Shown here piece by piece: positions 35,583 to 54,054 of a DNA stretch of 64,000 nt. The first letter of the stretch is position 1; every line of letters starts with the position of its first letter. The position numbers and the translations under genes were made by a program. The notes under the pieces were generated by a model. The model saw only the letters and a program-made list of their open reading frames with translations. It had not been told where the DNA came from and made no database searches. This stretch comes from Actinomycetota bacterium (lineage in GTDB: Bacteria; Actinomycetota; Acidimicrobiia; Acidimicrobiales; JAJPHE01). The stretch lies in contig DAHUYE010000049.1 in assembly GCA_027315345.1 (NCBI GenBank), positions 23,249-87,248 on the forward strand, in the 5' to 3' direction.

Positions 35583-36965
35583 ATGGCCATCCGAGTTGGT
35601 TCCCTCCCTTTATTTGGGCCCGTATCGGGCGCCAAGGTACATACCGGGCGGATCTCGGTCGGTGGTGCGGGCCGGATGGCGGGCGTCGTCCCCCTCATCA
35701 GTGACCTCACCGCTCTCGGCGTAGCCGCCGCCGTCTTCGCCCCCGGCGCCGTCACCGGGCTAGTGGCCATGGCCGCCAGCCTGGCCGGGATGCTGGTGAT
35801 CGGCCAGTACCGCGACGCCGTCGCCGCGCCTCTCCGGGGCCGGATCGGATCGCTGGTGGCCGTCGGAATGGTTCCTCCGGCCGTCCTGGGGCTGGTTCTC
35901 CACTCCAGCGCCGCCCTGACCAGGGAGGCTCTGCTTGGAACGATCCTGCTGCTGAGCATCCGCTCCGCCGGGGGAGCCTTGGTGCGGCTCCGCCGATCGA
36001 CCGGGCGCCTGCTGGTCCCTGCTGTGATCATCGGCGGCGGTCAGCTGGGACGGGACATCGCCTCCATCCTGGGCAGTCACCCCGAGTACGGCATGGTGCC
36101 GGTCGGCTTCGTGGACGACGTGGAGGACGGCGCCGACCTGCCCCTACCCCTCATGGGATCTCTGCGCTCACTGGACAAGGTCCTGCGCGAGCAGATGGTG
36201 AACGACGTGGTGGTCGCCTACGGCCCGGGCCGGGACGAGGCCCTGGTGCCCGTCCTGCGCCGCTGCCAGGCCCTCGGCGTGACCGTGCGGGTCGTGCCCC
36301 GATTCTACGAGCTCGGGGTCGAGTTGAGTTCCGAGGAGATCTGGGGCCTTCCTCTCAACACCCTGCGCCCGCCGCCCCTCAATTCGGCACCCTGGCTTGT
36401 CAAGCGCAGCCTGGACGTGGCCATCTCCGGGATCGCCCTGCTGGTTCTGTCGCCCCTGCTCGGTCTGGTCGCTGCCTTGATCAAGCTGACCAGCTCGGGA
36501 CCTGTCCTGTTCCGTCAGCCGAGGGTCGGCCTCCAGGGCCGCACCATCGCAGTCCTCAAGTTCCGCTCCATGCGGGTCAACCAGGACTCGGCCACCACCT
36601 GGAGCGTCGAGAACGACCCCAGGGTCACCCGCCTCGGGCGCTGGCTGCGCCGGACCAGCCTGGACGAGTTGCCCCAGCTGATCAACATCTTGAAAGGGGA
36701 CATGTCCCTGGTCGGGCCCCGTCCCGAGAGGCCCCACTTCGTGGAACAGTTCGGCTCGGAGATCCGCTCCTATGACGCCCGCCACCGGGTCCCGGCCGGA
36801 CTGACCGGCCTGGCCCAGGTCCACGGGCTGCGGGGCGACACGTCAATCGTGGAGCGGACGCGCTTTGACAACCGCTATATCGACAGCTGGTCGATGGGCC
36901 GGGATCTCTCGATCCTCATCCGCACGGTCGCGGCCGTGGTAAAAGACGCCCGCACCAACCGCTGA
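35583..36965 (+). CDS. Exopolysaccharide biosynthesis polyprenyl glycosylphosphotransferase (bacterial sugar transferase)
   Basis: KRSLDVAISGIALLVLSPLLGLVAALIKLTSSGPVLFRQPRVGLQGR...SLDELPQLINILKGDMSLVGPRPERPHFVEQF. Confidence 0.93.
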   Translation: MAIRVGSLPLFGPVSGAKVHTGRISVGGAGRMAGVVPLISDLTALGVAAAVFAPGAVTGLVAMAASLAGMLVIGQYRDAVAAPLRGRIGSLVAVGMVPPAVLGLVLHSSAALTREALLGTILLLSIRSAGGALVRLRRSTGRLLVPAVIIGGGQLGRDIASILGSHPEYGMVPVGFVDDVEDGADLPLPLMGSLRSLDKVLREQMVNDVVVAYGPGRDEALVPVLRRCQALGVTVRVVPRFYELGVELSSEEIWGLPLNTLRPPPLNSAPWLVKRSLDVAISGIALLVLSPLLGLVAALIKLTSSGPVLFRQPRVGLQGRTIAVLKFRSMRVNQDSATTWSVENDPRVTRLGRWLRRTSLDELPQLINILKGDMSLVGPRPERPHFVEQFGSEIRSYDARHRVPAGLTGLAQVHGLRGDTSIVERTRFDNRYIDSWSMGRDLSILIRTVAAVVKDARTNR

Positions 36966-38079: not shown

Positions 38080-39156
38080 TCAACGGCCCGAAGCCGAGCG
38101 GGCCGCCCGAACGAAGGACCAGTAGGCGGCTTTTGGTCGCCCGGCAGCGTCGATAAGCCCGAAGTGATCGTCATAGACATTGTCCTGCCATTCGTAGACG
38201 AACAGAGCCTTGATCCACGGCGTTCCACGGCTGAGGGTGAAAGCCTTGGCCACCTCGGCAGCCTGCTGGGCCTGGGTCACGCCGCCCGGCCCGGTGGGCG
38301 CCCCGTATTCATCCAACCATTCCGGAACGGCGGCGTGGAACGACCGGCTCACGCCACGGAGGGCGGCGGCCGTGGCGAATCCGCTGCCCGGATCGGAGAA
38401 GGTCGGCAACGCCGGAAAGGTGTAGGGGTGGTCCGAGAGGATATCGAAGCTGCCCTTGGCCCCATGGGCATACATGGATCTCAGGAAGGCCACGGCAGAC
38501 AGGTCCGTTGAACCGGTGGGTGCGTCGGCCAGGGCCCCGGCCACGATGACCGCCTGTCGATCTGCCTTCCGGATGGCCGCGCTGGCCGCCCGCAGCAACT
38601 GCGTGTACCCGACCGGGTCCGCATGACCGTTCCACCAGTTAGCGCCGACATTCGGCTCGTTCCAGATCTCGTAGTCGTGGATTCCCAGCGGGCTATATCG
38701 GGCCGCGGTGATCCCCGCAAAGGTGGCAAAGTCCCGAGCATGGTCCCGAGACCAGGCCACCGGATAGTCCAGGACGGCCAGGACACCCAGTCCGGCGTCA
38801 CGGGCCTGTTCCATCTCCCGGTCGAAGGCGCAGAAGCGATACCTCCCTGGGGCCGGTTCCGCGTCGCTCCAGAAGACGTCGAGCCTGACCATGCCGGCTC
38901 CAGCAGCCCGCATGGCCCTGAACTGATCCCCCAGGGCGGAGGCCGACATGACGGCGGTCACAGCCCCAGGAGAGATTCCGACCACCAGTCCCTGCCCGGA
39001 GGGAGGCGGGACCGAGCTGTGGATCGCGGCCGGGGGCGCGCAGTCCGTCTCTCCCGCGGCCACCGACGAAGGGGGGGTCGAGGAACCCCAGATGAGCCTT
39101 GAACTACCCACGCCGGCCATAGTCAGCACCGCTACGACTGCGATCCCGCCCACCAA
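38080..39156 (-). CDS. Glycoside hydrolase, clan GH-A-like (cellulase/GH39-like)
   Basis: VRLDVFWSDAEPAPGRYRF; HDYEIWNEPNVGANWW; PEWLDEYGAPTG. Confidence 0.82.
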   Translation of the reverse strand: MVGGIAVVAVLTMAGVGSSRLIWGSSTPPSSVAAGETDCAPPAAIHSSVPPPSGQGLVVGISPGAVTAVMSASALGDQFRAMRAAGAGMVRLDVFWSDAEPAPGRYRFCAFDREMEQARDAGLGVLAVLDYPVAWSRDHARDFATFAGITAARYSPLGIHDYEIWNEPNVGANWWNGHADPVGYTQLLRAASAAIRKADRQAVIVAGALADAPTGSTDLSAVAFLRSMYAHGAKGSFDILSDHPYTFPALPTFSDPGSGFATAAALRGVSRSFHAAVPEWLDEYGAPTGPGGVTQAQQAAEVAKAFTLSRGTPWIKALFVYEWQDNVYDDHFGLIDAAGRPKAAYWSFVRAARSASGR

Positions 39157-41738: not shown

Positions 41739-43199
41739 TCAGGCCGCTCGAGGACGACGCACCGATAGCTCCACCAGGTCCCCGCCTGCTCTCAGGCCGA
41801 CCAGGGCGGCGCCGTAGACCGCCACGCTCATCACGCCAGCCACCTCCCAAGGCAGGAACTCACGGGCCAGGGCCGCCGCTCCAGCCGCCGCCAGCCCCGA
41901 CAGGGCGGTCCGGACCAGGAGGGCCCAGGGCAGGCGGGCGAAGCCAGGAAGCGGGCGGGCGCTGGCCAGGAGAATCACCCCGACCACGGCCTCGGTCAGC
42001 ACCGTGACGAGGGCGGCGCCGTCGTATGACCATCGTGGGATCAGCACCAGGTTGAGCCCGACGTTCACGACCAGGCCGACCAGGCCGGCCACCGGGTACA
42101 TCAGGTTCCGCTGGGCGGCTGCAAGGGCGGTGAAGGCAAGGTTGGAGAAAAACGCTAACAGCGTGGCGCCGACCAGGGCCTCTGTGGCCAGGGTCGCTGG
42201 TTGGTAGCGGGTGCCGTAGAGCAGGCCGATAGCCGATCGGGAGAAGAAGGCGAACTCGACGACAAGGACCGCCGCCGCCATAGTCAGGACCACCACCGCC
42301 TTGCGGACAGCCAACCGAAACGCTCCTGGATCCTCGGGCCAGGCCCGGCTGAGAGTTGCCAGCAACGGCCCGCCCAGGGCCACGGGGATAAAAGACACCA
42401 GGTCGGAGAACTTGTAGCCAATGGCGTACTGGCCCACGGCACCCAGGCCGCGCAGCTTGGAGACCATCACGACATCGATGCGCACATAGATGCTGACCAT
42501 GGCCGCGCCAACCGACAGGGGAGCAGCGTCCCAGAGCCAGGCCCGCCACATCCGCAGCTCGATTCGCCGGCGGAGGCGAATGTCCTCGGGCAGTACCCTG
42601 AGACGCCAGCCGAGAGCAACCGCGTCGCAAAGCACGGCCGGCAGGACGAAAAGTACCACGCTTCGCGTACCCGCCAGGTAAAGCGCCACGGTCACGGCGA
42701 ACTGCACTCCCCGCCCCAGGACCATGGCCACTGACATCGACCGGACCCACAGACGCGCCGTGAAGAGCAGATCCAGAGCCGTCCCCAGCGACGCGAACAG
42801 CAGGCTGGCCCCGGCCACCAACGTGGCCTCCAGCACCCCCGGCGGGTAGTGAGCGGCAGCGATGGCCCCTACGGCCACCGCGTAACAGACCACCCCCAGG
42901 ATGAAGCGGAAGGTGACGTATGACCCGAGCAGCTGTTCGAGACGCGGACCGGTCGCATCGATCAGCTGGCGCATGACGATGCGGCCGAGGCGTAAGTCGG
43001 CCACCATGCCAACGATCCCGAGAACCGAGAAGATGACCGAAAATCCTCCCCATGACTGCGGTGACAACCGGTGGACGATCAGGATGGTCCCCGACCAGCC
43101 GAGTAGAGCCACCGCGTTGCGCGCCGCCACCAGGAACCAGGCGCCGCTGGCGAAGCTGGCCGCCGTCGCGGGAGAGCCCCGGCCAGCCCGGCGCCTCAT
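41739..43199 (-). CDS. Polysaccharide biosynthesis protein / flippase (Wzx/MATE-like)
   Basis: Multiple TM pattern; GAVGQYAIGYKFSDLVSFIPVALGGPLLATLSR, VGLNLVLIPRWSYDGAALVTVLTEAVVG. Confidence 0.88.
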   Translation of the reverse strand: MRRRAGRGSPATAASFASGAWFLVAARNAVALLGWSGTILIVHRLSPQSWGGFSVIFSVLGIVGMVADLRLGRIVMRQLIDATGPRLEQLLGSYVTFRFILGVVCYAVAVGAIAAAHYPPGVLEATLVAGASLLFASLGTALDLLFTARLWVRSMSVAMVLGRGVQFAVTVALYLAGTRSVVLFVLPAVLCDAVALGWRLRVLPEDIRLRRRIELRMWRAWLWDAAPLSVGAAMVSIYVRIDVVMVSKLRGLGAVGQYAIGYKFSDLVSFIPVALGGPLLATLSRAWPEDPGAFRLAVRKAVVVLTMAAAVLVVEFAFFSRSAIGLLYGTRYQPATLATEALVGATLLAFFSNLAFTALAAAQRNLMYPVAGLVGLVVNVGLNLVLIPRWSYDGAALVTVLTEAVVGVILLASARPLPGFARLPWALLVRTALSGLAAAGAAALAREFLPWEVAGVMSVAVYGAALVGLRAGGDLVELSVRRPRAA

Positions 43200-43221: not shown

Positions 43222-44265
43222 TCACGACCCCGAACGCCGCCGAGACTCGGCGGCGTTCAAGGCGGCCTGGGCGACCCGGAGTCCCAGGCGTGAGCCAGCA
43301 GCCAGGACATCCGTGGTGGAATAGGCCGAATCGGCCCATAGCTGCTTGTAGGCATCATTCCCTGGGAACAGATCGACCTCCTCGATGCCCTCCTCCCGGG
43401 CTCGGGTGAGTACAGCGCGGATGTTGAGGTGTCCCGGGGAGAAGGGTCTCGCACCCGGATGGGTTCGGTGACCCCAAAGAGCGACCGAACGACACCCCAA
43501 GAACCCGGCATGGAACGCCACCAGCTCCCCGTCGATCCAACCCAGGTAAAGCCGCAACCGGCCGGCATCGGCCGCCTCCCCCATCAGTTCGGCCGTGAAG
43601 CTGCCTTCGGAGCCCGCCATGAGGTTGCCTCGGGGATGGGCTTCCTCGGCGGCCCGGACCAGAACCGCCAGGGGGCCCAAGGCCGCCGTCACCTCGGCCC
43701 GGGTGACCGCCACCGTCAGCTGGAACGACTTACCGTCCCGGGCCAAGGCCCGGTCAGCGCGCCGGAGGATGCGGGCCAGCTTCTCCCCCGTCTCTGGGTC
43801 GGACGAGTGTGATGGGTCGATGGTGGGACACGCCTCGGCCGGCACGTGCGTCGAAGCGCCCGACAGGCACTCAAGAGGATCTCCTGGGCGCAACTCGTAT
43901 TGGAGGAGCTGGAGGAGCTGGCCTGGCCGATCGAGGACGGCGGGCCACACGGCCCGGCCCACCTCCGCCTCCCGACCGGGGGCAGCCAGGACCCGGCTCA
44001 CGGAGCCACTGGCATGTCCGAGGAAGCGGTTCACGCCGGCGGGGCCGAGGGGCCGGCGGTGCAGCGGGGCCAGTCCGATGAGTTGGCGATCCTCCCGCAC
44101 GACCACGATGTGGAGCCGGCCGTGGCCGAGCGTCCTCCACCAGGACAGGCACCACCACGGATAGCCGGGGGCCCGGGCGCCGGAGGCATCGGCCAGATCC
44201 GACCACTCGCTCCGCAGCGCTTCGGCCACCGAGAGGTCCTCGATGACCTCTGTGGTGGTTACCAC
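43222..44265 (-). CDS. BioF2/FemAB-like GNAT-fold acyltransferase
   Basis: WSDLADASGARAPGYPWWCLSWWRTLG; GRLRLYLGWIDGELVAFHAGFLGCRSVALWGHRTHPGARPFSPGHLNIRAVLTRAREEGIEEVDLFPGNDAYKQLW. Confidence 0.83.
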   Translation of the reverse strand: MVTTTEVIEDLSVAEALRSEWSDLADASGARAPGYPWWCLSWWRTLGHGRLHIVVVREDRQLIGLAPLHRRPLGPAGVNRFLGHASGSVSRVLAAPGREAEVGRAVWPAVLDRPGQLLQLLQYELRPGDPLECLSGASTHVPAEACPTIDPSHSSDPETGEKLARILRRADRALARDGKSFQLTVAVTRAEVTAALGPLAVLVRAAEEAHPRGNLMAGSEGSFTAELMGEAADAGRLRLYLGWIDGELVAFHAGFLGCRSVALWGHRTHPGARPFSPGHLNIRAVLTRAREEGIEEVDLFPGNDAYKQLWADSAYSTTDVLAAGSRLGLRVAQAALNAAESRRRSGS

Positions 44266-44266
44266 C

Positions 44267-46973
44267 TCAACCGCCCCCGCTCCCTTTCCGCAGCAGCGCC
44301 CGGGCCAGCATGAGGAGGGCCCTGGTCTTCTCCTTGCGCCCTCCGCCCAGGGCAAACAGGGCAGCCCCCAGGGCTGTGCCGGGCCAACCCAGATCGGGCG
44401 GCTGACAGTGCGCGCAGGCGGCGGGTGAATGCCCTATGAGCCGGGAGACCGCGTCCAGGAGTCCGAACTGCTCGGCACCCCGGGAGACCCGAGCCACTCG
44501 AGCCACGCGGGGCGAGGCGTTGGCGGGAGCCTCGGCCCGCTCGGCCAGCGCCAGCATCGGCAGGTCAGGGTCGTCGTCGCCAACAGCAAGGACCACCCGG
44601 CCTCCGATCTGGTCTCTGAGTGCGGACAGACCCACACCCTTGTCCAGCCCGGCTGTCACCAGGTCCGTCTGGTACCGGCGGGCCAGGACCTCGAGACCGG
44701 TCTTGGCCGGTAGGGCGTCGGCGGGTACGCCCCGGAGGCGGCCCCCCTGCAGGCTGTAGACCCGAAGGGACGAGGTGCGGGCCGGATCGCGCAGCACGTG
44801 CGGCCCGAACCGGCTGGCGACCTCCTCCAGGCGCCGGGCACCGGTGTCATCCAACAGCTTGGTATCCGACCCACCGCGCACGTGCACCACTCCTCCGTAC
44901 TCGGCCACCCCCCCGACCAAGCGGTAAGCGGCACACCGTTCGGCCACCTCAACGGCAGAGCGGCCGCTGACCAGCACAGCCCGGTAGCCGTGACGGGCCA
45001 AAGCCCTGAGGGCCAGGGCCCCGACAGGAGAAATCGTCGGCACTCCCATCCAGCGCGTCTCCAGGACGTTGTCCACGTCAATAGCGCACAGCGGGCCATC
45101 CGGAGGCTGTAGATCGGCGAAGTAGCGCGCCGAGAAGTAACTCTGAACGGCGCGAGCCATCGATGCATCGATGTCCAACAGCAAGCGGGCGCTGTCGGCG
45201 GCCGGAGCGCTCCGGTCGTTCCCGACCCGGTCCCGATGATTGAGGAGGTGAACCAGCTGATAGACCAGCCAGCGCTCGTCGTCGACGGCTTCGCCCGTGC
45301 TCTCTTGGAATCGATGACGGAGGGAATCCGGCACCTCGACCGCAGCCGGCCACCACGCCGCCCCGGCCACGTCGAACCATGGATCGAAACTGTCCAACTC
45401 GGTCTTAGAGGGGGAGTCGGAGAAGTTCACCTTGGCCAAGCCGCCCCCCCCCGTCGTGAACCAGTGGCCCGGGCCGGTGCGCCCGTCCAGAGCGGTCGGG
45501 TGGTGGGTCACCGTGAGCTGCCTCGCCAGAGCTCCGGCCAGGGGCCGGGCCAGGGGCCACCACCGACCGAAGGGCTGTTCCAGAATCCCTCCCACCGCCT
45601 CCCACACCGGCCAGCGACCGGCCAGGCGGCTGGAGCGGTCCTCCACCAGCCCCAGGCAGCCGACGCGGGCCTGCAGATAAGCAGCCATGGCCGCCACCTC
45701 CCCGGGGCCGGGAGCGAACAGTCGGCGGGACTCCTCGAGCTGGGCCCGCACGAGAATCCCCTCGACAACGCCGTAAACGGGGGGAACCCAGTCTTCCAGG
45801 AGATCTGCTGCCAGCAGCGAGTCCCGGCCTAGGTATCCCAGGCCCACGCCCTCGGCCCGGACCTGGGCCTGACCCCGCTCTCCGCCGGGACTGGTCACCG
45901 TGACGTCGAGCACCGAGTGGGCATGACCCCGCCGGGGTACGGGGCCCGATCGCAGAGCGACCTCCAAGACGACCTCGGGGCCAACGGGCATGGGACCCCG
46001 ATCGGTCAGCACTGTCCGACCCTTCAAGGCCGCGCTGACCAGAGTCTCCACCCTCGGAGAAGAAAGAAGGCCGACGGCGTGCCAGGCCGGCCACTCGAGC
46101 ACGCCGGAGCCCTCTGGAAGGTCTGGGGGAGGATCCAGCACGGCCAGGGCGCAGAGAACTCTTGCCCTGGTCGCCGCGGTCAGCTGGCCGATGGCCACCC
46201 TGAGAGCGTGGCCCGTATCGGGCGGGTCATCGACTACGACTACGGTCTGGTCACCAGCCAGCGACCGACTCAGGCTGGGATCGAGGCTGGCTCCCGGGCG
46301 GATCGTGGTCCACGGCACCGGCCGGTCCCCGGCAGCGGAAAGGTGAGCGGCCAACAGCGGTGCCAGGTAGTTGCCCGACGTGCGCAGCCCGACCACCCGC
46401 GTCGGAGGCTCCAGCGGGCCGAGTGCGCCCGCCAGGGCGGCCATGTCCTCCGGACGCTGGTCGAAACTGCGAAAGCAAGTCGGCACCCGGAGGACCTCAT
46501 CGGCCGCTGCGCCCAGGCGGGCAGGGTCCATGGCCCGAGCCATCCTCAACATCTCCTCGGGGCAGCGGCCGGAGCCGGCAACCACCCAACGGGACAGGTC
46601 GTCAGTCAGCCTCCAGGCGACCGCCGCCCAGGACCTCACGGTCGGACGGGGGATCCGGGAGCCAAGTCGCTCGGCCATTCCAGCCGCAGTCGCCATCCGC
46701 CGGCCCCCCGGTAGGCGCCCGGCGCCGGCGGCCTGGGCGATTCGGCGAGCTCGGATAATGTCGGAGTGCAGGTGGTCCTCGAGTATCTGGGACGCTCCGG
46801 CGGACAACAGGTAAGCATCCAGCACGTGAGTCCCAAAGACATCAGACGCGGCCATTTGCTCGAGTTGGCTCGTGAGCTCGGTCCAAACCGTCCGGAGGGG
46901 CAGAAGGATGCTCGGGCGCAGGACCGTTCCGGGGGGAACGTCGCCCGGCCGGAGGGTATCGACGGAGCACACG
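44267..46973 (-). CDS. Multidomain protein: N-terminal phosphoribosyltransferase-like, uncharacterised middle region, C-terminal HAD-type phosphatase
   Basis: VVGLRTSGNYLAPLLAAHL...TVVVVDDPPDTGHALRVAIGQL (PRTase-like); CAIDVDNVLETRWMG...RAVLVSGRSAVEVAERC...GLDKGVGLSALRDQIGGRVVLAVGDDDPDLPMLALAERA (HAD); GTG start at 46973. Confidence 0.75.
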
Positions 46974-46998
46974 CCGCCCGAGGATACCGAGGGACCGC

Positions 46999-49383
46999 TT
47001 GACCACCGGTGCAGAGCGACTGGCCGACCACCTGCGCGGAGCCGGCTACATGGAAGAGATAGGTGGTAGTGGTGACTTCGCGGCCGACCACGCCCGCACC
47101 GCGGACCTGGTCGGTGCCGCCACCTGGGGGCTGGGTGGGGTAACGGCGCCGGCCGTTCCCCGATGGCGACTGGACCGGGGACCGGCGCTCGAATTGGGGG
47201 CTCCGGCGTGGGCCGTCGACGCCCTGGCCCGACGCCTGGTCGGCCACGGCTTCTTCCTGGTCTACCCGGCACCCACCCAAGCGGCGGCTCCATGGCGCTT
47301 GGTACGGGTCGATCCCGACGGTATGGATGCTCTGCGCCTTTGGGCCCTTTCCCCCGGCGGGGTAGACGTCGGGCCACATCGGGCTCAGTTGCGTCCCGAG
47401 GGCTGGTGGGCGCTGGTCCTGGCCCGGGTAGCCTGGCAAGGAACCCCCCGCGGGGTCGACGTCATCGACCTGGCCGAGACCGGTTGGTTCGGGGACCAGG
47501 ACCCCCTTGAGCTCTCCCCTGACGACCTGGTCGGCCGGGTTGCACGAGCGGGACGGAGCCGAGCCCGGCGTTCCCTGGTCGGAGCGATCCTGTCGGGATC
47601 GGCCCCCGGTAGCCGGGACTCGCCCCCGGGCCGGGTCTTGATGTTCTCCGGTGGTCTGGCCGCGGACCGGCGCTGGCTGGTCCAGCGCACTCAGCTGGAT
47701 CTGGCTCGCCTGCAGTTGGACCGCGACGTAGGGGTTAGCGATGCCGGGTCGGCCACCGAGCGCCCCGTCGCCGGCGCCGGTAGGAGAGGGAGGGGACCGG
47801 ACACCATTGAAGTCCGCCTGCTGGATCCACCGGGCCAAAAATCGGAGCCGGCCCTATCGGCATCAGCCGCGGAGCGGGCCGTACACGTCGTCACCGGTGG
47901 GTGGGGCCATCACGACCGCACAGCGCTGGTGCGGGCGGCAACGGGCAACCGGGTCTCGACCGAGCAGGTCGACAGCCGGCCCCGGGGCGGGTGGCTCATG
48001 CTCTCCCCAACTGTCCCTGGGGGTCCCGTTGTTGCCGTCGACCTGGAAGCAGCCGTCGTCGAAGAGTTGCGCCGGATCCACCCCGGGGCGGTCACCGTCT
48101 CTCGAACGGCCGGCGCCCTCTCCGATCCGAACGGGCCCGGAGCCAGCACCCCCGGGGTGGTCTGGGACGGTGTCCACCTGCCCCTGCGGCCCGAATCGGC
48201 CGCCCTGGTCGTCGTAGACGCCCGACGCGCCAGCCTGGACGTTGCCGCTCGGGTGGCCCGCCAGGGGGCACCCGTGGCAGCCATCGTGGCCTCCGGCAAG
48301 CGTCACGATTACGCCCTTTACCCCCACCCCGAGGGACTGCTCTGGGTTACCCGCCGGGGCTGGCCGGTGGTGGGCGGAAATACGGCGGCCAGCCGGCTGC
48401 GCCGGTGGAGGGCGCGCAGCGCCCTCTGGCGGATGCTCGATCGGGCCGGCCTGGCCATCAGCGGAAGCGGCGGACCCTCGGTCGTCGACCTGGTGCTCGA
48501 GCAACTAGGGGCGGTCACGGGCGAGTCCTACGAGCTCAAAGGGATCATCACCCGTGGCCCCGATCAGGCGACCCTCCGGGTCGATGGCAGACGATCCACC
48601 CTTGCCCTGCGCGCCGCCCTCACCGAGCGAGGTGCCCAGCGGCTGGCCAACCTCGCCCGCGCCCAAGCCATGGTGCGAGATATGCCCGGCCCCCGTAGCT
48701 TCGTCGTTCCTAAGCCGGTGGGATCGGGCCAGGCAGTCGGGGTCGCCTGGCTGGCCGAGGAGTGGCTCGACGCCCGCCCGGGACCCGGAGGTCGGAGGTG
48801 GAGGACCAACGGCGGGCCGGGCTGGTCGGTGGGACGCGAGGTGGCGACCTTCCTGGCCGAGGGCGCCTCTACGGGCATCGCCGGACCCGGGTGGGCTAGG
48901 TCCTGGGGGGCCCTTCTCGACGACATCGGGCCGGCCGGTGAGGAGATCAGCCTGGCCCTGGCCGAGTTGGAGGCCGCCAGGGTGGTCACCGCCTGGTGCC
49001 ACGGGGACCTCTGGCCAGGCAACGTTCTCCTGGGTGGAGGCGGGGGACCGCCGGTGGTCATCGACTGGGACGCGGCCCGCCCTGATGCTCCGGCAGGTAT
49101 CGATGCCGTGCATATGGAGATCGACCGTCTCGCTTGGGAGCGCCACTGCTCCGTAGGGGTGGCAGCGGCCATCCTGGCCAGCAACGGAGCCCGCAACCTC
49201 GACGATGCGGCCGTGGGAGGCCGGAACTGGATCGACTGGAGCCCGGGCGTGCGTTCCGGTCTGGTGACGGCGGCCGTGATTCTGCGGGCCAGTCGGGGTA
49301 GCGTCGCGCCTGGAGGCCAGAACGAGCCTTGGAAGGACGAGAAGCTGCCACCCCTGGTCGCGGCTCTGCGCGCTATGCGCTAG
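46999..49383 (+). CDS. Multidomain protein: N-terminal unknown, middle methyltransferase-like, C-terminal aminoglycoside-phosphotransferase-like kinase
   Basis: VVAVDLEAAVVEELRRIHPGAVTVSR...GVVWDGVHLPLRPESAALVVVD (MTase-like); VVTAWCHGDLWPGNVLLGGGGGPPVVIDWDAARPDAPAGIDAVHMEID (APH catalytic loop and metal site). Confidence 0.75.
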   Translation: MTTGAERLADHLRGAGYMEEIGGSGDFAADHARTADLVGAATWGLGGVTAPAVPRWRLDRGPALELGAPAWAVDALARRLVGHGFFLVYPAPTQAAAPWRLVRVDPDGMDALRLWALSPGGVDVGPHRAQLRPEGWWALVLARVAWQGTPRGVDVIDLAETGWFGDQDPLELSPDDLVGRVARAGRSRARRSLVGAILSGSAPGSRDSPPGRVLMFSGGLAADRRWLVQRTQLDLARLQLDRDVGVSDAGSATERPVAGAGRRGRGPDTIEVRLLDPPGQKSEPALSASAAERAVHVVTGGWGHHDRTALVRAATGNRVSTEQVDSRPRGGWLMLSPTVPGGPVVAVDLEAAVVEELRRIHPGAVTVSRTAGALSDPNGPGASTPGVVWDGVHLPLRPESAALVVVDARRASLDVAARVARQGAPVAAIVASGKRHDYALYPHPEGLLWVTRRGWPVVGGNTAASRLRRWRARSALWRMLDRAGLAISGSGGPSVVDLVLEQLGAVTGESYELKGIITRGPDQATLRVDGRRSTLALRAALTERGAQRLANLARAQAMVRDMPGPRSFVVPKPVGSGQAVGVAWLAEEWLDARPGPGGRRWRTNGGPGWSVGREVATFLAEGASTGIAGPGWARSWGALLDDIGPAGEEISLALAELEAARVVTAWCHGDLWPGNVLLGGGGGPPVVIDWDAARPDAPAGIDAVHMEIDRLAWERHCSVGVAAAILASNGARNLDDAAVGGRNWIDWSPGVRSGLVTAAVILRASRGSVAPGGQNEPWKDEKLPPLVAALRAMR

Positions 49384-49404: not shown

Positions 49405-50538
49405 CTACCGCTGGGCCGGCCCGGAGGGTCGGGAACCATTGCCCAGACGGCGACGGAGGGCCCGAGCGGTGGGGAAGGCTGCCAGCAGCAGCCGATCGAA
49501 AGCACCACCGAGACAGATCGCCACGTCGGTCACCGCCAGACGATCGGGGTACAGCTCATTGAGCAACTCGTTGCCCGGATCGGTGCAGGAATCCAGCAAC
49601 TCCACATCCCCAAGACCGTGAAAGCGGACCAGGGCCTCGACTTCAGCGGTCACCCCTGGGCCCAAGCTCGCGAACTTCTCATCGTAGGCAACCTTGAAGG
49701 TAAATAGGCCCGATCCTGACTGGAGGCGACAGGCCATCGCCAAGGGAGGGCCGAGCCGGGTCTCCAGCGACCAGAGGTGCAGGAGCCCCGTGCTGCGGAA
49801 CCCCTCGCACATTGCCCTGAAGAAACGGGCGTGGTCGGGCTGGCAGGCGAGCGCAGTCCCGGCCTTCCCCTTCCACCCTGATGACTCGAGAACGAGGAAG
49901 GACTCGACAGCTTCGGGCTCCGAGGAGCGATCGACGAGGCTCACCTCGCTGCCCATGATCTCGGAAAGTCGTCGCCTGCGGCGGCGCAACTCGGATCTGC
50001 GACGCGATGACAGCCCACTCAGGTAACTGTCGGCATCCGGTCGGCGCTGGACGCAGGCCCGGGAAGCCCTCCGGAGCTCCAGGACGGGCAGCCCCCGCCG
50101 CGCTGCCGCCCCTCGGAGGGCCTCACTGGCCCCTCCGTCGGGTAACTCGTCCAGGGCCAACACCCCCACGGCACGGCGGTCGGGCCCGCGCCCTTCGGCC
50201 AGACAGGCCATGATCGCATCGGCGGCGGCTTCGGCGACACCCTGGCGCAGCAGGGGAGCGCTGGAAAAGGAGTAGATATGCCGCCAGGCCTGTAGCGAGC
50301 GACGGGGGATCCCCCTCCACGACCGGCGGGCCTGCAAAGGCAGGCACGCCTCCCACCGCCCGGCGTCCTCGACCACCAACAAGCTCGTGTCCCGCCCGTC
50401 TTGCAGGTAGCGACAGGCAGCCAGGACGAAGGTCGGATGGGCGAAAGCATTCGGCTGGACCGCCAGCTGGGAGAGATCCCCCCACGCCTGAATATCGGCA
50501 GATGTAAGCCGTCCGGGATCGAGATAGCGAGCCTGCAC
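49405..50538 (-). CDS. BioF2/FemAB-like GNAT-fold acyltransferase
   Basis: QPNAFAHPTFVLAACRYLQDGRDTSLLVVEDAGRWEACLPLQ; YLSGLSSRRRSELRRRRRRLSE; ESSGWKGKAGTALACQPDHARFFRAMCEGF. Confidence 0.85.
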   Translation of the reverse strand: MQARYLDPGRLTSADIQAWGDLSQLAVQPNAFAHPTFVLAACRYLQDGRDTSLLVVEDAGRWEACLPLQARRSWRGIPRRSLQAWRHIYSFSSAPLLRQGVAEAAADAIMACLAEGRGPDRRAVGVLALDELPDGGASEALRGAAARRGLPVLELRRASRACVQRRPDADSYLSGLSSRRRSELRRRRRRLSEIMGSEVSLVDRSSEPEAVESFLVLESSGWKGKAGTALACQPDHARFFRAMCEGFRSTGLLHLWSLETRLGPPLAMACRLQSGSGLFTFKVAYDEKFASLGPGVTAEVEALVRFHGLGDVELLDSCTDPGNELLNELYPDRLAVTDVAICLGGAFDRLLLAAFPTARALRRRLGNGSRPSGPAQR

Positions 50539-50669: not shown

Positions 50670-52166
50670 CTACTCCTGGACCGCGCCAACTCTCTCCGAG
50701 TCAGGGCGCGAATGCGGACCTGGGGATTCGGATGGCCGCTCTCCCGGGACCGTGGTGGTGGCCACGATGCTTAACAGCATCCAGGTGAAGACATCCATCG
50801 GGAATATCTCGAAAAAGGTCGCCACAGTCGAAGCCACCGCCGCCGCCAGAAGAAAGGCCGTGACCCCGCCGGCCAGCGCGCCGGCCAGCGCGCCGGCAAA
50901 GGTATCAGCCCTGTTTGGATTGGCCATCCGATTGGACTCGGCGATGGCGGACAACAGGAATAGGACCAACATCCACAAGCCGGGGATACCCAGTTCGTAG
51001 ATGGTCTTGAAGTAGTAGTTGTCGGGTTGGTAGACGGCCGCTGAGGCGCCGGTCGCTCCGGCAGCCTGGAGCTTGGCGACGAGGCTGGCAGCAGCCCCAC
51101 TGGCGCCGATGCCACTCCCCAGCGGGTGGGACAGAACCTGGGCGAGGTTGGCCTGCCAGCCCGAGGACCGTTCGGCAAGCGAGGAGCTGGACAGGGCGGT
51201 GGAGGCCAGCTTGGCCGGCAGGAACAATAGGCCCAAGCCAGCAAAAGGCAACCCGATGAGAAGGATGCGGTGCCGACGTATTCCTAGATATAGGGCCCCC
51301 GCGCCCAGGCCGAGCCAAGCCCCGCGCTCGAAAGTAAAGAACAGCGCCAACAATAAAAGCGGACTACTGACGAAAAAGATGGTGCTACGTAACCGGCGGG
51401 GTTCGACCAGGCAGGTGGCCCCTACGACCAGGAGAACGAGCATGAGGAAGTACGCAAAAGGAGATTGGTACGTGAAGCTCGAAAACGCCCGCAGATGACC
51501 GCCAGCAAAGCGGATGGTGGTGTTGTACGGAAAGCCGATGGCGTTGAGCCGGGCCGCACCGATTGCTTCCTCGGCTACACCAACAAACGCCGTGATGATC
51601 CCGGTCACCAGGAGGATGGATATCAGGCGATCTCGTTCAACTGATGAGGGAGGGCAGCGCCAGATGCTCCACGCCAGGAGGACATAAAAGAAATCGATGC
51701 GAAACCCAGCCATGGCTTGGGTCGGGCTGACCGTGGCCGACGAAACCAGGCCGATCAGCATAAGACCGGCCACGGCCGGGGCCCATCCCGGCAGGCGGCG
51801 CCCGGGCTCGGCCCTGTTGCGGGCCGGGCCGACGAAGGTCCCCGCCAGCACCACCAGGACCAGCGCCTCCTTCCACCCTCGCAGGGAGTGCGCGTGAGGG
51901 ACGATGGCCAGCAGGCCATCAAAGGGGACCAGCGCCGCCAGCACCAGAACACCTCGCTGGGGCCGCTCCAGGACGGCCAGGAGACCAGGCACGGCCACGG
52001 CCGCCACCAGGACGTCCGGCCCTAACCCGACGAGGTCCGCAACGATGAGAGCGCCAAGTCCGACGATCCCCCAGGCGGCACCGGCCGGCAGCCTTCTCGT
52101 GAGTGGGCTCGACGGAACACCGCGTGGGGGACGAGCGGCCAACCAGCCTCTCAACCTTCCGCCCAC
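50670..52166 (-). CDS. O-antigen ligase/polymerase (Wzy/WaaL-like) family membrane protein
   Basis: Multi-TM; FTFERGAWLGLGAGALYLGIRRHRILL, LAQVLSHPLGSGIGASGAAA...PDNYYFKTIYELGIPGLW. Confidence 0.85.
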   Translation of the reverse strand: MGGRLRGWLAARPPRGVPSSPLTRRLPAGAAWGIVGLGALIVADLVGLGPDVLVAAVAVPGLLAVLERPQRGVLVLAALVPFDGLLAIVPHAHSLRGWKEALVLVVLAGTFVGPARNRAEPGRRLPGWAPAVAGLMLIGLVSSATVSPTQAMAGFRIDFFYVLLAWSIWRCPPSSVERDRLISILLVTGIITAFVGVAEEAIGAARLNAIGFPYNTTIRFAGGHLRAFSSFTYQSPFAYFLMLVLLVVGATCLVEPRRLRSTIFFVSSPLLLLALFFTFERGAWLGLGAGALYLGIRRHRILLIGLPFAGLGLLFLPAKLASTALSSSSLAERSSGWQANLAQVLSHPLGSGIGASGAAASLVAKLQAAGATGASAAVYQPDNYYFKTIYELGIPGLWMLVLFLLSAIAESNRMANPNRADTFAGALAGALAGGVTAFLLAAAVASTVATFFEIFPMDVFTWMLLSIVATTTVPGERPSESPGPHSRPDSERVGAVQE

Positions 52167-52262: not shown

Positions 52263-53951
52263 TCACAGCGAGGCGACAGCACTGACCCGAACGGAGGGAC
52301 GAGCGGCAGGAGTGGCGCCGGCGGGATCGTCCCCAAAAGTCAGCTCCCGCCCATTGGCCGTGAACAGTGCATAGCCGCCCCCATCAGGAGTGGCCACCAT
52401 GCCCACGACCGGCTGGGGAGAGACCGAGCCGGATGCCGAGCCGTGGAAGGAGGCGTCACCGAAGCTGAAGACACCCCCGTCAGCGGTGACCAGCCAGTAA
52501 CCGCCCCCGTCGGGGGTGCTTGACATTCCCACCACCGGCTGGTTGAGGTGGATATCGCCCGCAGAGCCGTAGAAGGAGGCGTCGCCGAAGCTGAAGACAC
52601 CCCCGTTGGAGGCCGCCATCCAGCACCCGTGACCGTCGGGCGTGCTGGCAAGAGCTACAACGGGGGCGGCGGAGGCGACACCCCCTGAAGGGATCGGACA
52701 CGTCGGGGTGCCCATCCAGGTCACTCGGCCCGTGGAGCTCACCAGTGCCGTGGTCGGGAGACCGGCGTGGTCGATCGCTCCCGACGGAGAGGAGCTGGAT
52801 CCCGACGGGGAGAAGGTAGCCCCTGAGGCAGAAGAGGTGGCTGATGAGGCGCCGGCGGCTGAGGCTGATGAGACTTGGGCAGAGGAAGTCGTGGCCGGGG
52901 CGATCTGGCTCTCGTAGGCAGCCAGCGAGGGCTTGGGAACCCCGGCCGCGGTCAACATACCGAAGTTGTCCTGGTCGTTGGCAGGATCGCTGCCGGCGTC
53001 TTGCCAGTAGCTGAAGATCGGACCGGCCCACGGCCAGGCGGTCACGGCCTGCATGGCTTGGGAGATCATCTGGGCCTGGACCTGGAGGCTGACCGCATCC
53101 GAGGCCGTGCCGGTAGGAGCACCGTACTCGGTCAACCAGATCTTCTTGGCGCCATCCCCATGGTCGACCATGACCTGATGGAGGTGGGGCAGTTCATAGA
53201 AGGTGTTCCAGGAGTCCGCCTGGGTGGGCATGTCAGGAAAGCTCGACGGGTGAACGGACAGAGCATCGAAGTAGCCCTGACCGCCGGCCGCGTAGATCCC
53301 CTCCAGGAAGCTGAGGGGGGACATCTCGCTTAGATCAGAGGCATCTGTGGCTGGAGACAAGGCTCCGGCGACGACCGTGGCGCTGGGGTCAAAGGCCTTC
53401 ACGGCCGAGTAACCCGCTTTGAGGGTAGCTGTATAGGCCGCCGGACTCACCTGCGGGCCCCAGGACCAGGACATGTTCGGCTCGTTCCAGATCTCCCACG
53501 TATGGACCCCCATCGGGGCGAAATGACGCACCGCGGCGGCCATCATGGCGCCGTAGGCGGCGGGGTCTCCCGGGGTCTTGGTCCAATCCGGGGTGTAATC
53601 CGGCACCAAAAGGACGTGCAGGCCGTCAGCCACCGCTCCCGCGACCACCGGATCGGGCTCTGACCAATCGAATTGACCCGGGGATGGCTCGATGTTCGGC
53701 CAGAACAGATCCAGGCGGATCCACGTGGCACCCGAGGCGGCAATGCCCGCCAAGGTCTGGCTCAGGGCTGCCCCGGACTCCGTCTCGATCTGGGCCTCGG
53801 GAGTTATGCCTGCCTGCGTAGCCGGCAGCAGGGCGGCCGTGGCCGCCGCCACCGGCCTCTGGCCGAGAAGGGAGATGGCGGAAAAACCGACCAAAACGGC
53901 GGCGCCGGCCACCGTCGAGCGGGTGAGCAGGGCCACCGTGCGGAGAGACAT
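52263..53951 (-). CDS. Secreted clan GH-A-like glycoside hydrolase with C-terminal FSFGDASFYGSA beta-repeat domain
   Basis: HTWEIWNEPNMSWSWG, IWLTEYGAPTGT; C-terminal repeats GCWMAASNGGVFSFGDASFYGSAGDIHLNQPVVGMSSTPDGGGYWLVTADGG. Confidence 0.83.
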   Translation of the reverse strand: MSLRTVALLTRSTVAGAAVLVGFSAISLLGQRPVAAATAALLPATQAGITPEAQIETESGAALSQTLAGIAASGATWIRLDLFWPNIEPSPGQFDWSEPDPVVAGAVADGLHVLLVPDYTPDWTKTPGDPAAYGAMMAAAVRHFAPMGVHTWEIWNEPNMSWSWGPQVSPAAYTATLKAGYSAVKAFDPSATVVAGALSPATDASDLSEMSPLSFLEGIYAAGGQGYFDALSVHPSSFPDMPTQADSWNTFYELPHLHQVMVDHGDGAKKIWLTEYGAPTGTASDAVSLQVQAQMISQAMQAVTAWPWAGPIFSYWQDAGSDPANDQDNFGMLTAAGVPKPSLAAYESQIAPATTSSAQVSSASAAGASSATSSASGATFSPSGSSSSPSGAIDHAGLPTTALVSSTGRVTWMGTPTCPIPSGGVASAAPVVALASTPDGHGCWMAASNGGVFSFGDASFYGSAGDIHLNQPVVGMSSTPDGGGYWLVTADGGVFSFGDASFHGSASGSVSPQPVVGMVATPDGGGYALFTANGRELTFGDDPAGATPAARPSVRVSAVASL

Positions 53952-54054
53952 GTAGCACTCTCGTCACTACCAGTGGTTTTCTTAACACCTAAAGTGGTCT
54001 CGACGGAGGAGGCCTCCCAGGGAAGCAACCATGGCCTGGAGTACCCTCGGGCCA

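Follow-up and report, generated by a model that had tools for sequence, protein, structure and literature searches.

A PRTase-X-HAD protein and its partner kinase: a conserved gene pair of Acidimicrobiales that may add ribose to surface polymers

What do two large multidomain genes, diverging from nearly the same point of an actinobacterial exopolysaccharide locus, contribute to the polymer made there? The pair lies in a 64,000-nucleotide stretch of contig DAHUYE010000049.1 from a member of the order Acidimicrobiales, and this whole stretch is here called the window. The original prediction saw the pair as a candidate for an undescribed system bringing kinase, phosphatase and PRPP-type chemistry to a surface polymer. 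By its gene content, the surrounding region can be identified as an exopolysaccharide locus:

35583-36965, plus strand: initiating bacterial sugar transferase, which marks the exopolysaccharide locus
41739-43199, minus strand: Wzx-type flippase, a separate gene in the window
43222-44355, minus strand: FemAB/BioF2-type acyltransferase (Acetyltransf_6)
44267-46972, minus strand: PRTase-X-HAD gene, core of the system (901 aa)
46973-46998: gap of 26 bp between the divergent start codons
46999-49383, plus strand: partner kinase gene (794 aa), with a TTG start at 46999
49405-50538, minus strand: second FemAB/BioF2-type acyltransferase (Acetyltransf_6)
50670-52166, minus strand: O-antigen ligase/polymerase-type protein (Wzy_C)

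The divergent arrangement and the flanking genes (two acyltransferases, flippase and Wzy_C gene) are thus as originally described. Both genes of the pair are coding by codon-position GC, and the same measure, together with relatives, best places the minus-strand start at GTG 46972, a further in-frame GTG being present upstream at 47377. Glycosyltransferases and a Wzz/tyrosine-kinase-type protein (at 54031) also belong to the locus, and FemAB/BioF2-type genes recur in the loci of genomes G349, G433 and G964. The product of 49405-50538 scores 99 bits over 330 residues against the NCBIfam BspF crotonyl-transferase model (cut-off 775) and is best regarded as an ordinary GNAT belonging to the polymer locus. 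Two glycoside-hydrolase-like, probably secreted proteins are encoded on the minus strand at 52263-53951 and 38080-39156, the former ending in repeats of the type GDASFYGSAGD..LNQPVVGM.STPDGGGYWLV. A defence system and a mobile element were considered and rejected, PADLOC giving no match to the former and a plasmid search none to the latter.

The protein encoded on the minus strand can be divided as follows:

46019-46495, minus strand: type I phosphoribosyltransferase (PRTase) domain, residues 160-318, from a profile of 11 relatives
46211-46231, minus strand: PRPP-binding loop DDPPDTG, residues 248-254, a sequence motif
45092-46018, minus strand: domain X, residues 319-627, about 290 aa, conserved in all members
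44435-45091, minus strand: HAD-IIB phosphatase domain, residues 628-846 (PF08282)
44405-44434, minus strand: C-terminal GHxPxxCxxC motif, residues 847-856, with H, P, C and C invariant

A PRTase-type loop, a middle region that could not be placed and a C-terminal HAD phosphatase had all been predicted for this protein, and all three were confirmed. The loop reads VVVVDDPPDTGHAL, its residues D, D, P, P and G being invariant in the 11 relatives (pattern DDPPx[TS]G), and a conserved P-[ST]-[CS]-F-R-S-F-D-Q precedes the domain. As a single sequence the protein scores under the cut-off of Pfam PF00156 (PRTase). The profile of the 11 relatives, compared with solved structures, matches PyrR best (E 1.2e-5), followed by GPT, OPRT, XPRT and HGPRT, with PRTases accounting for nearly all of its 42 structure matches; on this profile and the invariant loop we assign the domain to the type I PRTases. 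Domain X, in which GxGxGxxG, D496, D530, D534 and RW567-568 are conserved, has no match in PDB, Pfam or NCBIfam. Its DG...YD..FDLA pattern had suggested by eye a degenerate APH kinase, a candidate we do not uphold, as profile comparison with the partner kinases gives a probability of 0.2% and PDB and Pfam offer no match. The HAD domain exceeds the PF08282 cut-off (28.7 versus 20.9 bits) and carries D632xD634, S/T669, K778 and GD799xxxD803, of which the motifs DxD, K and GDxxxD are invariant among the 11 relatives; its best PDB matches are Cof-type HADs, with no PRP chain at E<0.1. The GHxPxxCxxC tail is possibly metal-binding. A HAD protein with the same tail is encoded in another actinobacterium, G534 (L023:8902-10155, minus strand), where it adjoins an acyltransferase-SGNH-like gene and neither a PRTase nor a kinase lies nearby. 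The minus protein lacks any transmembrane-like stretch (best 19-residue hydropathy value 1.33). Our statements on its folds rest on sequence profiles, a two-sequence AlphaFold model being unusable at a pLDDT of 33.7.

The plus-strand gene encodes two parts:

46999-48318, plus strand: N-terminal extension, about residues 1-440
48376-49380, plus strand: APH-type kinase domain, with HGDLWPGN at residues 668-675 and DW at 689-690 (PF01636)

By its third-position GC (0.74-0.84) the extension looks like coding sequence; none of the eight other partner kinases has it, and a search of 249 genomes yielded no relative. The middle of this protein had been thought to resemble a Rossmann methyltransferase, with methyl transfer as a possible activity. 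This stretch gave no match in Pfam, NCBIfam or PDB, inspection recognised no SAM-binding glycine motif in it, and the eight other partner kinases do not have it; the SAM-dependent methyltransferase was dropped on these grounds, leaving methyl transfer unsupported. The predicted C-terminal kinase, by contrast, held up, scoring 33.7 bits against PF01636 (cut-off 23.2). Its residues H, G, D, N, D and W are invariant across nine partner kinases, whose family profile matches APH-type structures. An HMM built from four stand-alone partner kinases places the window kinase (33.8 bits) at the top of the 14 APH proteins of its own genome, the 13 others scoring at most 11.4 bits, and by these comparisons we consider it a specific orthologue of the partner kinases. 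It is the most divergent of them (18-24% identity to the others), the C-terminal HVAxNLxK helix is missing from it, and its alignment has Arg at the position where the ATP-binding Lys is expected.

How far the pair extends beyond the window was judged from sampled genomes. Full-length relatives of PRTase-X-HAD occur in 9 of 398 sampled Acidimicrobiales genomes (about 2%), and relatives in 6 of the 32 genomes of one family. A sample of 398 genomes of the phylum yielded zero full-length copies outside the order and only the lone HAD with the same tail, and the sole match in a pattern scan of genome contigs reaching beyond Actinomycetota as well was L006, from an Acidimicrobiaceae MAG. Co-occurrence of the two genes, on which the original prediction had been staked, is indeed found: an APH kinase is adjacent to or near PRTase-X-HAD in 9/9 complete non-lasso loci, a count that omits the copies on incomplete contigs (L006, G909 and G977). 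The kinase gene directly follows the PRTase-X-HAD gene in G017, G349, G433 and G404, with a 4-bp overlap in G349 and G433. In G969, G933, G859 and G964 a Wzx-type flippase carries the kinase at its C-terminus; this fusion gene and the PRTase gene overlap by 4 bp in G969 and G933 and are one gene or about 2.6 kb apart in G859 and G964. In the relatives the two genes are mostly co-directional, several overlapping by 4 bp, whereas the window genes diverge. The fusions, and a neighbour found beside two of the relatives, are located as follows:

L073:5694-8096: Wzx-type flippase-APH kinase fusion
L074:6341-8734: Wzx-type flippase-APH kinase fusion
L075:1-2496: Wzx-type flippase-APH kinase fusion
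L076:4054-6855: Wzx-type flippase-APH kinase fusion
L075:7757-10207, minus strand: large, probably secreted IU_nuc_hydro protein beside PRTase-X-HAD
L076:12267-14702, minus strand: large, probably secreted IU_nuc_hydro protein beside PRTase-X-HAD

The stand-alone flippase of G404 is homologous to the kinase-fused ones (E down to 1e-42), which we read as a classical fusion link. Given 25 APH matches in the 3.84-Mb window genome, we estimate that chance would bring a kinase this close in about 1-2% of cases per locus. Pairwise distances of PRTase-X-HAD and kinase correlate (Mantel r 0.91, p 1e-4, 9 pairs), this correlation being confounded by shared species history. Judged from these genomes, PRTase-X-HAD and the kinase form a real, conserved pair.

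Most of the complete non-lasso loci are glycan loci, that of G017 not obviously so, and genes for glycosyltransferases, a PIG-L deacetylase and FemAB-type proteins are found repeatedly around the relatives. A large membrane protein is encoded between or beside PRTase-X-HAD and the flippase-kinase in G933 and G859. The nucleoside-hydrolase-like gene directly beside PRTase-X-HAD in G859 and G964, two genomes of one genus and hence a single observation, points to ribosyl chemistry. Next to the pair of G349 stand a nucleotidyltransferase-aminotransferase fusion (L014:5735-7621, plus strand) and then a weakly LicD-like gene, which together resemble a decoration pathway of the phosphonate or choline type; an ATP-grasp gene is also near.

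PRTase-X-HAD occurs in a second context as well. At three loci of G912 and G917 it is flanked by an Asn-synthase-type cyclase on one side and a P-loop HPr-kinase-like gene on the other; another gene of HPr-kinase type (PF07475 in G912) and a peptidase of the B2 type (Transglut_core3) are also present, while B1 was not identified in these loci. Precursor ORFs were found in the clusters:

L035:9922-10131, minus strand: lasso precursor ORF
L036, near position 45, plus strand: lasso precursor ORF
L037:4291-4464, minus strand: lasso precursor ORF

They encode MEHPKYEAPVLRREGSLAALTA-ANTLNSYSD... and MEHNTYEAPLLRSEGSLTALTA-GSYPSSKAD..., and both precursors fit the lasso leader, which has YxxPxL and a penultimate Thr (PMC10368454); in both, Asp would fall at core position 9. 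As the motif YxxPxL...G...T has no other occurrence in the 569 kb scanned, and by gene content, we take these to be genuine lasso-peptide clusters. HPr-type kinases are known to phosphorylate Ser of lasso peptides, a second enzyme then adding a sugar to the phosphate (PMC8498205), and one of the cores here has a C-terminal Ser; the lasso peptides of G912 and G917 are candidates for ribosylation/phosphorylation. HPr-kinase-like genes replace the APH kinase in the lasso loci, so the kinase type shifts with context while PRTase-X-HAD stays constant. Phylogenetically, the window protein clusters with the lasso-associated form (98/98), although both sit on long branches.

The best explanation, to which we give a probability of about one half, is that the pair comprises a PRPP-dependent ribosyltransferase/phosphatase and a kinase that together decorate the surface polymer. 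The PRTase domain would transfer ribose-5-phosphate from PRPP to an acceptor, in the window locus a lipid-linked sugar from the repeat unit of the exopolysaccharide; domain X would bind the acceptor or keep it between the two sites, and the HAD domain would strip the 5'-phosphate, leaving ribose. The partner kinase would modify this intermediate at the membrane, either ahead of flipping or as it takes place; its most likely target would be the acceptor (or the ribose just added), giving a phosphorylated ribosyl substituent for the Wzx-type flippase to export. In G912 and G917, PRTase-X-HAD may tailor the lasso peptide together with the HPr-type kinases. A PRPP-dependent PRTase and a HAD phosphatase are known to add Ribf to polysaccharides (PMC11127046, PMC10299916), and the two combined in one glycan-locus protein are the signature of PRPP-dependent ribofuranosyl transfer; ribosyl transfer by the minus protein would thus be the best explanation, two reservations being the different type of its PRT domain and the novelty of domain X. 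It also speaks against this explanation that the nearest solved relatives of the PRT domain, PyrR and GPT, act on bases, not sugars, as do the divergence of the window kinase, with its Arg at the expected Lys position, and the locus of G017. A role for the kinase would follow if acceptor or product carries phosphate, the closest logic being that of pseudomycoidin, where a kinase acts and a sugar is then put onto the phosphate (PMC8498205), and the flippase-kinase fusion suggests a membrane-bound intermediate as the place of this step. The domains, catalytic motifs, kinase partner, flippase fusion and glycan and lasso contexts can be read from sequence and, at the level of anatomy, give good support to the predicted combination of PRPP-type chemistry with a kinase and a phosphatase on a surface polymer. 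We infer the donor (PRPP), the product (ribose), the acceptor, the kinase substrate and the order of the biochemical steps.

More tentatively, the kinase might phosphorylate the acceptor, with PRTase-X-HAD ribosylating at or next to this phosphate and then trimming, to leave ribosyl-phosphate on exopolysaccharides and lasso peptides alike; the kinase would then be APH-type for glycans and HPr-type for lasso peptides. To our knowledge, neither such a phospho-ribosylation mark nor its enzyme class has been described.

The fusion of flippase and kinase, and the large membrane protein nearby in G933 and G859, would also suit a lipid-linked route, in which ribose-5-phosphate is put onto undecaprenyl phosphate, the HAD dephosphorylates it, undP-ribose leaves by way of the flippase(-kinase) and is used outside by a GT-C; a known three-component system indeed has a PRTase, a HAD, a MATE transporter and a GT-C (PMC11127046). 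We consider this unlikely, the known enzyme being a UbiA-type integral membrane protein whereas the minus protein has a type I PRTase and no transmembrane-like stretch, and the kinase would be left unexplained. Similarly doubtful is a small-molecule route, by which PRTase, kinase and HAD would make a nucleoside-like or sugar-phosphate precursor for another enzyme to attach to the polymer. N-glycosides are what type I PRTases normally make, and precursors of these kinds are what Ter-associated modules have been proposed to build; the ATP-grasp and nucleotidyltransferase-aminotransferase genes of G349 and the nucleoside-hydrolase-like neighbour in G859 and G964 would fit as well. However, TerD is absent from the window genome and PRTase_2 from the nine genomes with the pair, on which grounds a Ter-type module was itself rejected, and the only constant partners are the kinase and, often, the flippase. 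Less probable still is a regulatory role, with the PRTase domain sensing PRPP as PyrR/PurR do, and flipping under phosphorylation control by the kinase and the HAD. The nearest solved relative of the PRT domain is PyrR, and the flippase-kinase fusion resembles the arrangement in mycobacteria, where a MurJ-fused pseudokinase has been proposed to control flipping; yet the catalytic residues of both HAD and kinase are intact, HAD-IIB enzymes act mostly on small sugar phosphates, and control of polymer export would be ill-suited to the lasso-peptide context. That the genes are chance neighbours in a variable locus, as the divergent orientation and very divergent kinase of the window might hint, is highly improbable in view of the 9/9 complete non-lasso loci, the 4-bp overlaps, the specific orthology and the co-divergence.

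PRPP-using PRTase-phosphatase proteins have only recently been recognised as a source of ribofuranose in bacterial polysaccharides. If the ribosyltransferase/phosphatase reading is true, PRTase-X-HAD represents an independent solution that started from an ordinary nucleotide-type PRTase and became linked to a kinase, with the flippase drawn in as well, in a class of actinobacteria of which most knowledge comes from metagenomes. Its occurrence in lasso clusters predicts a new peptide modification, and the small, defined precursor peptides could also show how the glycan enzyme works.

Among known systems, the gPRT-PRP ribofuranosyltransferases of Klebsiella O4/O7 and Thermobacillus (PMC11127046, PMC11231755) likewise have a PRTase-type and a HAD domain in one protein and occur in glycan loci. 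The PRT domain of the minus protein, however, matches PyrR/GPT-type PRTases and not gPRT structures, no gPRT, CriT or Bcs3 chain appearing at E<1 in the profile search of structures (a comparison of sequence, not of fold), and the protein adds domain X, the GHxPxxCxxC tail, the constant kinase partner and the occurrence in lasso clusters. The Hib capsule polymerase Bcs3 (CriT + CrpP + CroT; PMC10299916) is a multi-enzyme protein with PRPP-dependent transfer followed by HAD dephosphorylation, as predicted for PRTase-X-HAD; its CDP-ribitol transferase and SH3b domain are not recognised in the minus protein, which has a kinase in addition, and CrpP lacks the second Asp of DxD, both Asp residues being invariant in PRTase-X-HAD. 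The three-component systems with UbiA-type PPPRS/DPPRS (PMC11127046) share a HAD phosphatase, a MATE/flippase-type exporter and the presumed use of PRPP, but rely on a membrane prenyltransferase where a soluble type I PRTase is found here. The clusters of phospho(glycosyl)ated lasso peptides (paeninodin, pseudomycoidin; PMC8498205) resemble those of G912 and G917 in combining an HPr-type kinase with a candidate sugar-adding enzyme, which is PRTase-X-HAD instead of a nucleotidyltransferase. Ter-associated modules, finally, have PRTase and HAD together. We found no description of the conserved PRTase-X-HAD/kinase module itself, and the literature, partially covered, gave nothing directly relevant on lasso clusters with a PRTase or on flippases fused to an APH kinase. 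To treat the chemistry as entirely undescribed is nevertheless too strong, as PRTase and HAD pairs adding ribofuranose are known (PMC11127046, PMC10299916); the pair would rather act like the gPRT-PRP family while standing, by the sequence tests run, outside it.
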